A DNA stretch of 64,000 nucleotides. Origin: Actinomyces naeslundii (lineage in GTDB: Bacteria > Actinomycetota > Actinomycetes > Actinomycetales > Actinomycetaceae). Shown here piece by piece: positions 59,351-64,000 of the stretch (position 1 is the stretch's first letter; each line of letters opens with the position of its first letter). Both the position numbers and the translations under genes were made by a program. The notes under the pieces are model-generated. The model made no database searches. It saw nothing but the letters and a program-made list of their open reading frames with translations, and was not told where the DNA came from. Location: NCBI RefSeq assembly GCF_001956585.1, contig NZ_MSRR01000024.1:1-64000 (forward strand), given 5' to 3'.

Positions 59351-61507
59351 CTACTGTTTGTTTTCTGGACTGTTGAGGTGAGCCACAATAGTACCTGCCA
59401 GAGCCGGCCCGATACCCTTGACGCGGGTGATGTCGTCCACCTCGGCCTGCCGAATGCGTTTGACGGATCCGAACTCGCGCAGGAGAGCCGCCTGTCGGGC
59501 GGGCCCGAGACCGGGAACGCCGTCCAGTACCGAGCGGGTCATCCCGGCCGAGCGCTTCTTGCGGTGGTGGGTGATGGCGAATCGGTGGGACTCGTCGCGC
59601 AGGTGCTGGAGCAGGTAGAGGGCAGGCGAGGTACGCGGCAGGATGACGGGGAACTCCTCCCCCGGCATCCAGACCTCCTCCAGGCGCTTGGCCAGACCGA
59701 TGAGTGGAACATCGATGCCGAGCTCGTCGAGGACCGAACGGGCGGCGTTGACCTGCGGCAGACCGCCGTCGACGACGACGAGCCCGGGCGCGTAGGAGAA
59801 GCGCCGGGCCTTGCCGGTCTCGGGGTCGATAGGACCGGAGGCGACGGCGATACCCTCGGCGTCCTCGATCTCCTCGGCCGCACGGGCGGCCGCCTCGCCC
59901 TGTCCCTGCTCAGCGATGAGCCGCTTGAACCTCCGGGTGAGGACCTCGTGCATGGCTGCAGTGTCATCGGTCGCCCCGTTGCCGTCCTGGCCGCGCACGG
60001 TGAAGCGGCGATAGTCGGACTTGCGCGGCGCACCGTCCTCGAAGACCACCATGGAGCCGACCTGGTAGGTGCCCTGGGTGTGGGAGATGTCGTAGCACTC
60101 GACGCGCAGGGGTGCCTCGGGCAGGTCGAGGGCCTCGGCGAGCTCATCAAGAGCGAGAGTGCGCTGGGTGAGGTCACCGGCACGACGGGTCTTGTGCAGG
60201 CGCAGGGCTTCCTCAGCGTTCCTACGCACCGTGTCCATGAGAGCAGCCTTGTCCCCGCGCTGCGGAACACGCAGATCGACCTTCCCTCCGCGAAGCCCCT
60301 CCAACCACGCACGCACGGTGGCGGCGTTGCTGGGCATCTCGGGGACCAGGATCTCCCGAGGCACCGCGGTGGTGGCTGTGTGGGCGACATCGTCGACACT
60401 GGTGGCCGCCGACTCGCCGTTGCGTCGGGAGGCGGCACCGCTGGAACCGTTGGGACCGCTGCGGGGCTGGGGGCTGGAGGGGGCGCGGTCGCCCACCCCG
60501 ACCGAGGTGGTGGTGCCCGAGGAGGCGGGGGCTCCGCCCTGGTGGACGGCGCCGTCGTCGGCAGGATCGAGAAGGGAGGCGTAGACCTGCTCGAGGAGAC
60601 GTTCGATGAGCTCGGAGTCTTCGGCGTCGTCAATGAGATCGACGACCCAGCCGCGCTGTCCGCGCACCCGGCCACCACGCACGTGAAAGACCTGGACCGC
60701 AGCCTCGAGCTCGTCGCGGACCAGGGCGAAAACGTCAGCATCAGTAGCATCGGGCAGGACGACGGCGTTGCCCTCGATGACCTTGCGCAGCGCGGCGGCG
60801 TCGTCGCGCAGGCGGGCGGCCTTCTCGAAGTCGAGGGCTGCTGCGGCAGCCTTCATCTCCGACTCCACCTGGCGCAGATAGGGACCGGTTCGGCCGGCCA
60901 TGAAGGCGCAGAAGTCCTCGGCGAGCGCCCGGTGGTTTTCCGGATTGATGCGACCCACGCACGGCGCCGAGCACTTGTCGATATAGCCCAGCAGGCAGGG
61001 GCGGCCTGATGCCTGGGCACGGCGAAAGACGCCGGCTGAGCAGGAACGGACGGGGAAGACGCGCAGCAGCTGGTCGACGGTCTCGCGGATGGACCAGGCC
61101 TGGACGAAGGGCCCGAAGTAGCGGGTCCCGGGCTTGCGGGCCCCGCGGACCACCTGAACCCGGGGGTAGGTCTCCCCCATCGTCACCGCCAGGTAGGGAT
61201 AGGACTTGTCATCCTTGTACATGACGTTGAAACGGGGGTTGAACTCCTTGATCCAGGAGTACTCCAGGGCCAGGGACTCCACCTCGGTGGATACGACGGT
61301 CCACTCCACGGCGCAGGCGGTGGTCACCATCTTCTGGGTGCGCGGGTGCAGGGCAGCGAGGTCCTGGAAGTAGCTGGACAGGCGCTGGCGCAGGTTCTTG
61401 GCCTTGCCGACGTAGACGACACGTGCCTGATCGTCCAGGAACCGGTAGACGCCCGGGGACGTGGGGATCTCGCCCGGGGCGGGACGGTACGTCGAGGGGT
61501 CGGCCAT
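59351..61507 (-). CDS. uvrC: Excinuclease ABC subunit C
   Basis: Makes both incisions in nucleotide excision repair with UvrA and UvrB. A 718-residue protein: GIY-YIG domain [20 protein letters not shown] near residue 19, Cys-rich [14 protein letters not shown]-like part near 170, UVR motif near 225, RNase H-like C-terminal nuclease ([15 protein letters not shown]) and a tandem helix-hairpin-helix end ([30 protein letters not shown]). Between UVR and RNase H parts, about residues 315-380 are a Ser/Gly/Ala/Pro-rich low-complexity insert. Confidence 0.95.
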
Positions 61508-61577
61508 GCCCGCTAGGGTAGACGCCGACCGACCTTGCCCACGACATGCTGCCCCGCAGCCAGTCGCCCGAAGAGCA

Positions 61578-61606
61578 AAGGCCCGAGCCAGCAGGGCTCA
61601 GGCCTT
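61578..61606 (-). terminator. Terminator behind the minus-strand tRNA cluster
   Basis: Stem of 11 pairs with one mismatch (61578-61589 with 61595-61606) and a five-base loop, directly after tRNA-Val on the minus strand and followed by T-rich sequence. Confidence 0.75.
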
Positions 61607-61612
61607 CGTATG

Positions 61613-61687
61613 TGGTGGGCGATACTGGGATCGAACCAGTGACCTCTTCCGTGTCAGGGAAGCGCGCTCCCGCTGCGCCAATCGCCC
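61613..61687 (-). tRNA. tRNA-Val (anticodon GAC)
   Basis: Acceptor GGGCGAT pairs with ATCGCCC; anticodon loop CTGACAC between CTTCC and GGAAG; T arm with TTCGATC. CCA is encoded (61613-61615). Confidence 0.97.
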
Positions 61688-61688
61688 G

Positions 61689-61759
61689 AGGTGGGTACCG
61701 GATTCGAACCGGTGTAAACGGCTTTGCAGGCCGGTGCCTAGCCTCTCGGCCAACCCACC
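61689..61759 (-). tRNA. tRNA-Cys (anticodon GCA)
   Basis: Acceptor GGTGGGT pairs with ACCCACC; anticodon loop CTGCAAA; discriminator base U as expected for Cys. CCA is not encoded. Confidence 0.96.
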
Positions 61760-61796
61760 ATGAGAATGCTGGGGCTCGGCGCTCCCGGCTCCTCGG

Positions 61797-61869
61797 AGCG
61801 GATGACGGGACTCGAACCCGCGACCCTCACCTTGGCAAGGTGATGCTCTACCAACTGAGCCACATCCGC
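61797..61869 (-). tRNA. tRNA-Gly (anticodon GCC)
   Basis: Acceptor GCGGATG pairs with CATCCGC; anticodon loop TTGCCAA in a TCACC/GGTGA stem; discriminator U. CCA is not encoded. Confidence 0.97.
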
Positions 61870-62019
61870 GCGATCCCTCACGGTTCGACCGAACCGCTCG
61901 GTGCTGGAAAACCATAGCATCACGATCACACCGACAAGCAAACAGCATCGCGGTGATTCACCTCACCGGGCAGCCGTTTGCTCCGGGGGTGCCGGCCTGA
62001 CTATGGTTAGCGCCGCACA

Positions 62020-62095
62020 GGGCGATTGGCTCAGGGGTTAGAGCGCCTCGTTCACACCGAGGAGGTCACTGGTTCGATTCCAGTATCGCCCACCA
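62020..62095 (+). tRNA. tRNA-Val (anticodon CAC)
   Basis: Acceptor GGGCGAT pairs with ATCGCCC; anticodon loop TTCACAC between CCTCG and CGAGG; CCA encoded at 62093-62095. It faces away from the minus-strand tRNA-Val(GAC). Confidence 0.97.
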
Positions 62096-62213: not shown

Positions 62214-63371
62214 ATGGATGCCGTCACAGTCTCCGCTCGACTGTCACAATTCGATGCGCCGATGTGTCTGATGGGTATGAGTCCAACGCATCGCACCACC
62301 ATCGTCATCATCGGGGCCGGGTACGCCGGGATCATGGCAGCCAACCGGATTGCTTCTCACCCAATGGCCACCGCCCTCACACGTGTTCGCCTCATCAGTG
62401 CCTCGACACACCTTGTCGAGCGTATTCGTCTGCATGAGGCTCTTCGTGCTGAAGAAGACCCGGTACGGCCCTTGTCCGAGCTGCTCAACCCAGCCATCGA
62501 CGTTGTCATCGGCCGCGCGACGAGCATCGATCGCAAACGGGGTGTCGTCCATCTTTCCGATGGCGACCCCATTCCCTTCGACCAGGTCGTCTTGGCGACC
62601 GGCAGCACCAGCCGGGCACCTGCTGGAGCCCTGCCGATCTCCGGGATCGCCGATCTGCAGCCGCTTCGAGATGAACTTGTCGGCTCTTCACACACGCGCA
62701 TTCGCGTCGTCGGCGGCGGCCTCACCGGGATCGAGACCGCCGCGGAACTTGCTGAGCAAGGATTCGATGTTGAGATCGTCGACTCCGGCACCGTCGGCTC
62801 CCACCTCGGCGTACGAGCCCGCAAGCAGGCCTCTCGCCAACTGCGTCGACTGGGCTGCACGGTGACCGACAACCAGTTGTGCCAGCCCGAGCCCGGCATA
62901 CTCACCATATGGACCGCAGGTTTTGCACCGGTCACTGTTCCGTGCGATCCACCAGTGTCGACCTCTTCCGACGGGCGCATCGTGGTCAACAGGTTCCTAC
63001 GCTCCCCCGACGATCCCAGGATTACCGCGATCGGCGATTGCGCTGCGCCTCCGGCCTCGCACCTGCGCCCCAGCTGTGCCTCAGCCCTGTCTCTGGGAGC
63101 CGTAGCCGCTGATATCCTCATCTCCGGCGTGCTGAAGACCCCAGCGCCGTCCAACACGGGGGTCGGTTATGTCATGCGCTGCGTCTCGCTGGGACGCAAC
63201 CGCGGCCTCGTCGAGCACGTAAGTCCGGACGACGTTCCCAACGGTCCTGTCCTGACGGGGAGAACGGCCCGGCGAGTCAAGGACTGGGTCATGGACCGCA
63301 CTACTCAGTGGTTGATCGAAGAGGCTCAGCGCTCCGGCTCGTACCGTATCGTGAGAGGCCCAGCTCAATGA
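62214..63371 (+). CDS. FAD-dependent NAD(P)H oxidoreductase (NDH-2-like)
   Basis: A protein of up to 385 residues with two Rossmann motifs: TTIVIIGAGYAGIMAANRI near residue 29 (FAD) and RIRVVGGGLTGIETAAELA near 160 (NAD(P)H), plus ITAIGDCAAPP near 268. It resembles type II NADH dehydrogenases and related disulfide-less oxidoreductases, but has no C-terminal membrane helix. The exact start is unsure: ATGs at 62214, 62271 and 62277 all lie before the conserved core and none has a good Shine-Dalgarno. The stop overlaps the sigma-factor start (ATGA), so both are coupled. Confidence 0.87.
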   Translation: MDAVTVSARLSQFDAPMCLMGMSPTHRTTIVIIGAGYAGIMAANRIASHPMATALTRVRLISASTHLVERIRLHEALRAEEDPVRPLSELLNPAIDVVIGRATSIDRKRGVVHLSDGDPIPFDQVVLATGSTSRAPAGALPISGIADLQPLRDELVGSSHTRIRVVGGGLTGIETAAELAEQGFDVEIVDSGTVGSHLGVRARKQASRQLRRLGCTVTDNQLCQPEPGILTIWTAGFAPVTVPCDPPVSTSSDGRIVVNRFLRSPDDPRITAIGDCAAPPASHLRPSCASALSLGAVAADILISGVLKTPAPSNTGVGYVMRCVSLGRNRGLVEHVSPDDVPNGPVLTGRTARRVKDWVMDRTTQWLIEEAQRSGSYRIVRGPAQ

Positions 63372-64000
63372 CTGCTTCCGACCAACCCGCAGATATGGAC
63401 AACAGGTCCGGTCAGGATTTCGAGGAACATCGCGCCGTTCTGTTTACCCTCGCCTACAGCATGCTTGGTAGCGCGGCGGAGGCCGAGGACATCGTGCAGG
63501 AGACATGGCTGCGTCGCCAACGCGTCAGGGAACCGGTGCGGCAGGAGCGCGCGCTGCTGTGCCGTATCGCCACACGCCTGGCACTCAACGCGATGCGCTC
63601 CGAGGCCAACCGGAAGGAGTCCTACCTGGGGCCGTGGCTTCCCGAGCCGGTCGCCACTGAGGCAGATCTGGCCGACGACCTGATCCTGGCGGAGACGGTC
63701 TCTGAGGCGACGCTGATGGTACTGGAGACCCTCTCCCCCGCCGAACGCGCAGCATTCCTCCTGGTAGAGGTCTTCTCCCTGTCATCGGCGGAGACCGGTC
63801 GCATCATCGATGCATCCGATACCGCCGTGCGCCAGCTGGTGCACCGTGCACGCACCCGGCTGCAAGAAGGACGAACACACCGACGCGCCAGCCCCTCTCC
63901 CGAGCTGTGGACCGAGCTGACCAGTGCCATTCGCTCGGGAGACTTGGCGGCCACCGTACGTCTGCTGGCTCCTGAGGCGGTACTCGTGTCCGACGGTGGA
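63368..64000 (+). CDS. ECF41-type RNA polymerase sigma factor, 3'-truncated
   Basis: Extracytoplasmic-function sigma factor open to the window end (211 residues seen). Sigma-2 region: EEHRAVLFTLAYSMLGSAAEAEDIVQETWLR; the linker has the subgroup marker YLGPWLPEPV; sigma-4 region: LSPAERAAFLLVEVFSLSSAETGRII and VRQLVHRARTRL. After that a SnoaL-like C-terminal extension begins (residues about 185 onward), the hallmark of ECF41. ECF41 factors lack classic anti-sigma partners and are usually next to a carboxymuconolactone decarboxylase, oxidoreductase or epimerase gene, which they control; here the coupled oxidoreductase fits. Confidence 0.9.
   Translation, partial: MTASDQPADMDNRSGQDFEEHRAVLFTLAYSMLGSAAEAEDIVQETWLRRQRVREPVRQERALLCRIATRLALNAMRSEANRKESYLGPWLPEPVATEADLADDLILAETVSEATLMVLETLSPAERAAFLLVEVFSLSSAETGRIIDASDTAVRQLVHRARTRLQEGRTHRRASPSPELWTELTSAIRSGDLAATVRLLAPEAVLVSDGG

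Follow-up and report, generated by a model that had tools for sequence, protein, structure and literature searches.

The analysed window comprises positions 1–64000 of a 91617-base contig of Actinomyces naeslundii (NZ_MSRR01000024.1, labelled G000:C24). Near its right end lie two overlapping genes of the + strand. The gene at 62277–63371 (alternative start 62271; frame as first called 62214–63371) encodes an FAD/NAD(P) oxidoreductase of 364 aa with a Pyr_redox_2 domain and a predicted NDH-2/FSP1-like fold; the gene at 63368–64264, of which the window contains the part up to 64000, encodes an ECF41 sigma factor of 298 aa with a full SnoaL-like extension. The stop codon of the oxidoreductase gene and the ATG of the sigma gene at 63368 share the sequence ATGA (63368–63371, +); this overlap, reported in the original prediction, was read directly and is seen in all four carrier species read (G000, the genome of the window, and G001, G011 and G057). 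A possible Shine–Dalgarno sequence of the sigma gene, GAGAGG (63353–63358, +), is present in the same four carriers and may function in its translation.

The gene for tRNA-Val (CAC) (62020–62095, +) lies upstream and forms the left border of the variable locus, while the downstream neighbour of the operon is a convergent gene for UTP-glucose-1-phosphate uridylyltransferase, UGPase (UDPGP E 1.1e-119). With these two as next neighbours, no anti-sigma gene was found beside the operon. Three open frames of 100–123 aa (61461–61763, +; 61546–61917, +; 61598–61948, −) lie over tRNA genes; annotating these three (61461–61948) as proteins would be an error.

Sigma factor and oxidoreductase

The sigma factor contains the core domains Sigma70_r2 (E 2.9e-10) and Sigma70_r4_2 (E 2.9e-11), both over the cut-off, and no other core domains. 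The WLPEP motif of the sigma2–sigma4 linker, named by Wecke et al. 2012 (PMC3426412), is represented as YLGPWLPEPV; the sequence DGGGR, the first two residues of which are invariant in an alignment of eight sequences, was also found. The C-terminal SnoaL-like extension, of ~100 aa in the description of the group, comprises about 130 aa after sigma4. The sequence includes RNPDKL and thereby the motif NPDKL, which is described as closing the extension and contacting the linker (PMC7730460). Its SnoaL_2 match, 19.8 bits, is below the Pfam cut-off of 27. No stop codon removing the SnoaL domain occurs soon after 64000: the frame is open to the gene end at 64264, and the fused extension proposed in the original prediction is complete, including NPDKL.

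SigJ of M. tuberculosis (5xe7), an ECF41 sigma factor with a SnoaL_2 domain, is homologous to the protein over residues 15–261 (E 1.5e-42), and the NCBIfam SigJ model aligns over residues 13–290. The curated cut-offs are not reached, either for SigX4 (TIGR02957, 279.7 versus 323.25) or for SigJ (PRK09636, 266.8 versus 271); by these scores the protein is a somewhat divergent member of ECF41, filed under neither model. The 80 named ECF41-like loci among the matches listed by a collection scan with one peptide pattern, in which records very near the genome of the window may be missing, are 36–48% identical to it. Since 2012, the classification of ECF sigma factors has undergone revision (PMC8999054, PMC7730460). 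Membership in ECF56 was rejected: SigG1 of that group is described with a SnoaL_2 extension lacking NPDKL and with an adjacent anti-sigma gene (PMC7730460), whereas here NPDKL is present and no gene occupies the anti-sigma place. The COE partner of the sigma factor is the Pyr_redox_2 protein, with tRNA and UGPase genes as neighbours. All testable features of ECF41 are represented, with the exceptions of one base of the -10 element and the SnoaL_2 score under the Pfam cut-off; the assignment to ECF41 is upheld by sigma2/sigma4, the linker motif, NPDKL and the SigJ alignment.

The two-dinucleotide (FAD/NAD) fold of the oxidoreductase is represented by a Pyr_redox_2 match with E 3e-31. A structure model built from 18 sequences has a mean pLDDT of 88.1, and nearly all of the first 18 Foldseek matches are NDH-2 or FSP1 (TM-score by query length 0.75–0.82); when only sequence is compared, a rubredoxin reductase and FSP1-type proteins are the solved chains nearest to it. 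The Pyr_redox_2 match and the Foldseek result make ‘NDH-2-like’, as used in the original prediction, a fair name for the predicted fold. Sequence identity to type II NADH dehydrogenases and FSP1 (5kmp, 5na1, 8yo8) is about 20%, the likeness being one of predicted fold. Of the 80 named loci listed, 17 encode a homologue of the oxidoreductase on the strand of the sigma gene and upstream of it; the motif TGTCACR-N15-17-YGTY is present within 400 bp in 12 of these 17, and a 4-nt overlap is possible in four of them (L036, L042, L075 and L083).

Promoter, start codon and predicted leaderless mRNA

Upstream of the oxidoreductase, where the original prediction proposed to search for an ECF41 promoter, the sequence TGTCACA-N16-TGTC was found at 62242–62268 (+), inside the gene call from 62214; it represents the TGTCACA-N16-CGTC type expected before the partner gene. 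The -35 element, TGTCACA (62242–62248, +), is TGTCACG in G001 and G057 and CGTCACG in G011, and the -10 element, TGTC (62265–62268, +), follows after a 16-bp spacer, with spacing and -10 element the same in G000, G001, G011 and G057. TGTC is a single base away from the consensus CGTC and is common among the named ECF41 loci listed; the -10 element of the ydfG promoter is TGTT (Wecke et al. 2012, PMC3426412).

In 17 kb, the pattern TGTCACA-N14-18-YGTC has one match versus 0.11 expected, and at least one match occurred in 21 of 200 shuffles. The genome-wide search, also suggested originally, recovered the operon site with TGTCACA-N15-17-YGTC as one of eight matches, versus four in the reversed control, which shows that the motif is not rare. 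A strict scan with TGTCACA-N14-18-CGTC (four matches versus three in the reversed control) was discarded, since it misses the site owing to its TGTC. Taken alone, the site lacks genome-wide significance; the weight falls on its position and on its occurrence in relatives.

In-frame ATG codons are present 2 nt (62271) and 8 nt (62277) after the end of the -10 element in all four carriers. Pairwise comparison of G000, G001 and G011 gave 3–4 non-synonymous versus 1–2 synonymous changes in the 19 codons of 62214–62270, and 14–17 versus 16–36 in the 366 codons from 62271 on, small numbers in both cases. Because the promoter falls inside the call from 62214, the oxidoreductase most likely starts with ATG 62277 (or 62271) and not at 62214, where the original prediction had probably placed the start wrongly.

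A mapped case is the SMb20029–rpoE9 operon of the alphaproteobacterium S. meliloti, under TGTCACA-N16-CGTC, whose transcription starts 9 nt downstream of the motif (PMC3616915). This distance points to A62277 (+), with which the ATG begins, as the predicted transcription start, giving a leaderless mRNA. The spacing was compared in 89 ECF41-like loci, namely, the window (L012), eight loci of the same order and the 80 named ones, the near-identical L013 and L014 being left out. TGTCACR-N16-YGTC has 60 matches on both strands in 53 of these loci. ATG frames of at least 90 codons follow these 60 promoters at offset 8 in eight cases and at offset 9 in six (14/60), compared with 11 in all for the remaining 26 offsets in the range 4–31; offsets 0–3 also have 11 (1, 0, 4 and 6). 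A Shine–Dalgarno-like sequence is absent from 13 of the 14 cases at offsets 8 and 9 and present in 31 of the 35 promoters with an ATG frame 28–60 nt away, as called by a loose pattern and in sets that may share promoters. The 14 cases, including that of the window, are not independent, lying in 12 loci, some of them related (L067 and L073 belong to one genus). By eye, from the first 30 residues, their products include oxidoreductases, short-chain dehydrogenase-like proteins and also sigma factors. L067 and L073 (Acrocarpospora) each contain two leaderless-type ECF41 motifs, of which one precedes a sigma gene and the other a frame resembling an FAD enzyme.

A phylum-wide scan of 149 genomes at any locus showed no clean peak in the leaderless spacing: its 45 matches at offsets 3–18, including four from a tandem repeat of G172 and with offsets derived by hand from coordinates, frames unchecked, comprise five at offset 8 (one of them the window), none at 9, seven at 3 and six at 13. 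The mapped ECF41 targets of B. licheniformis and R. sphaeroides, unlike the mRNA predicted here, are transcribed with a leader of 22/23 nt (Wecke et al. 2012, PMC3426412). It appears moderately probable that ECF41 promoters have two types of output, Shine–Dalgarno-led and leaderless, the latter in about a quarter of cases (14/60), the operon belonging to the latter type in the four carrier species; if true, the group often drives messages translated without a leader. At the operon itself, the 5' end of the mRNA probably coincides with the start codon, which may be the one new point: a literature search joining the words ‘leaderless’ and ‘ECF41’ gave nothing beyond the S. meliloti paper (PMC3616915).

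The same operon and regulation are compatible with a start at ATG 62271, or at 62214 from another promoter further upstream, in which case the enzyme mRNA would not be leaderless; this reading differs from the preferred one in the start only. ATG 62271 is kept along with 62277 in the four carriers, and no stop codon interrupts the 62214 frame in any of the three carriers that were compared. Nevertheless, ATG 62271 would precede the expected transcription start, the changes in 62214–62270 are mostly non-synonymous, and related ECF41 loci cluster at offsets 8–9, which makes such a start rather unlikely. The leaderless start at A62277 is less certain than the control of the operon by ECF41.

Regulation of the operon

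The gene pairing is a new instance of the known COE>ECF41 arrangement. In the survey of Wecke et al. 2012 (PMC3426412), 107 of 373 ECF41 genes have the order COE>ECF, with a promoter before the COE gene in 97 of the 107, and the diverse partner families include Pyr_redox_2, counted as oxidoreductase. The pairing of the two genes is thus a hallmark of the group and unexceptional here, not a clue peculiar to this operon; what the present analysis adds is the promoter, a correction of the start, the accessory distribution in the genus and the prediction of a leaderless mRNA. The closest known systems, Ecf41Bli/ydfG and Ecf41Rsp/RSP_0606 (PMC3426412), share with the operon the WLPEP linker, the fused C-terminal extension, the adjacent COE partner, a TGTCACA-N16-type promoter before the partner and the lack of an anti-sigma gene, but their partner is a carboxymuconolactone decarboxylase instead of a Pyr_redox_2 flavoprotein. 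The same paper describes control of activity by the fused extension for Ecf41Bli and Ecf41Rsp, single-target regulation in two organisms and the identification of the partners as targets.

The locus very probably represents an autoregulated COE>ECF41 operon under ECF41 control. In the resting state, the SnoaL-like domain would restrain the sigma2–sigma4 linker (YLGPWLPEP) via NPDKL; some ligand or state would lift this restraint, and the sigma factor would then direct RNA polymerase to TGTCACA-N16-TGTC. Transcription from about A62277 would give a putatively leaderless bicistronic mRNA, from which the NDH-2-like flavoenzyme would be translated first, followed by more sigma factor through the ATGA overlap, with presumed translational coupling and positive feedback. 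The flavoenzyme would be the target, its probable role being the reduction or detoxification of a small molecule. The present analysis itself shows the two genes with their domains, motifs and overlap, the promoter-like site, its occurrence in four species and the counts of offsets in related loci; control by the extension, target specificity and the 9-nt distance from motif to start in S. meliloti are taken from the literature.

Two other readings concern the role of the partner. The original prediction left room for a redox-linked input or a redox-linked target, and the oxidoreductase could share in sensing, perhaps by partnering the sigma factor in a redox-dependent way: a redox-enzyme fold is predicted for it, and its overlap with the sigma gene is kept in four species. 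The promoter before the oxidoreductase makes the enzyme a target, as the partners are according to Wecke et al. (PMC3426412), and the partner families of ECF41 are diverse. Moreover, co-expression of YdfG with Ecf41Bli in B. subtilis is reported there, as ‘data not shown’, to make no significant difference to sigma activity. The target part of the prediction is supported by the promoter and by Wecke et al., nothing found here favours a redox input, and a part in sensing is improbable.

Still less probable is an incidental adjacency, with the sigma factor acting mainly on other genes, a reading to which the seven further matches of TGTCACA-N15-17-YGTC in the genome would lend themselves. One of these, an exact TGTCACA-N16-CGTC look-alike (G000:C19:53118–53144, locus L011), is followed after 40 nt by a diaminopimelate-dehydrogenase-like gene (DAPDH_C E 2e-68). 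Of ten genomes searched for it, seven had a readable motif (G010, G023 and G061 fell outside), and the motif is also kept in G006, G007 and G049, which lack the operon at this site. Its presence is therefore independent of the sigma factor; it was rejected as a second target and is probably not an ECF41 promoter. The degenerate motif YGTCACR-N16-YGTC has 23, 19 and 18 matches in three carriers, versus 6, 6 and 3 in the control, and some sites besides the operon are shared among the three. Against an incidental adjacency, the oxidoreductase and sigma genes occur together in four carriers. The locus follows the ECF41 blueprint closely enough for its promoter, start site and target to be predicted, which makes the group easy to put to the test here.

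Distribution of the operon in the genus

In a protein search of 25 genomes of the genus, the sigma factor was present in three, that of the window included. The UGPase gene was found in all 49 genomes of the genus, and its flanks were read in 30; the operon lies beside it in four of these (G000, G001, G011 and G057), tRNA-Val is present within 1.5 kb without the operon in 24, and in the remaining two (G044 and G047) neither tRNA-Val nor the operon was found in the stretch around UGPase. The operon is accordingly accessory in the genus. GC3 is 0.71 and 0.75 in the operon genes versus 0.85 in UGPase and 0.84 in uvrC. Because of this low GC3 and the empty site in most relatives read, the distribution suggests horizontal gain in one subclade, with loss elsewhere as the alternative. 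The accessory status, together with the compact layout of one motif, one transcript and probably no leader, lends the operon to comparison of carriers and non-carriers.

In the region corresponding to 62020–64286, the gap from the tRNA-Val end to the UGPase match is variable, ranging from ~40 to 620 bp in the 24 operon-free genomes. In G018 (C1:1626847–1628222), the UGPase match is split into two pieces by a frameshift or a sequencing error.
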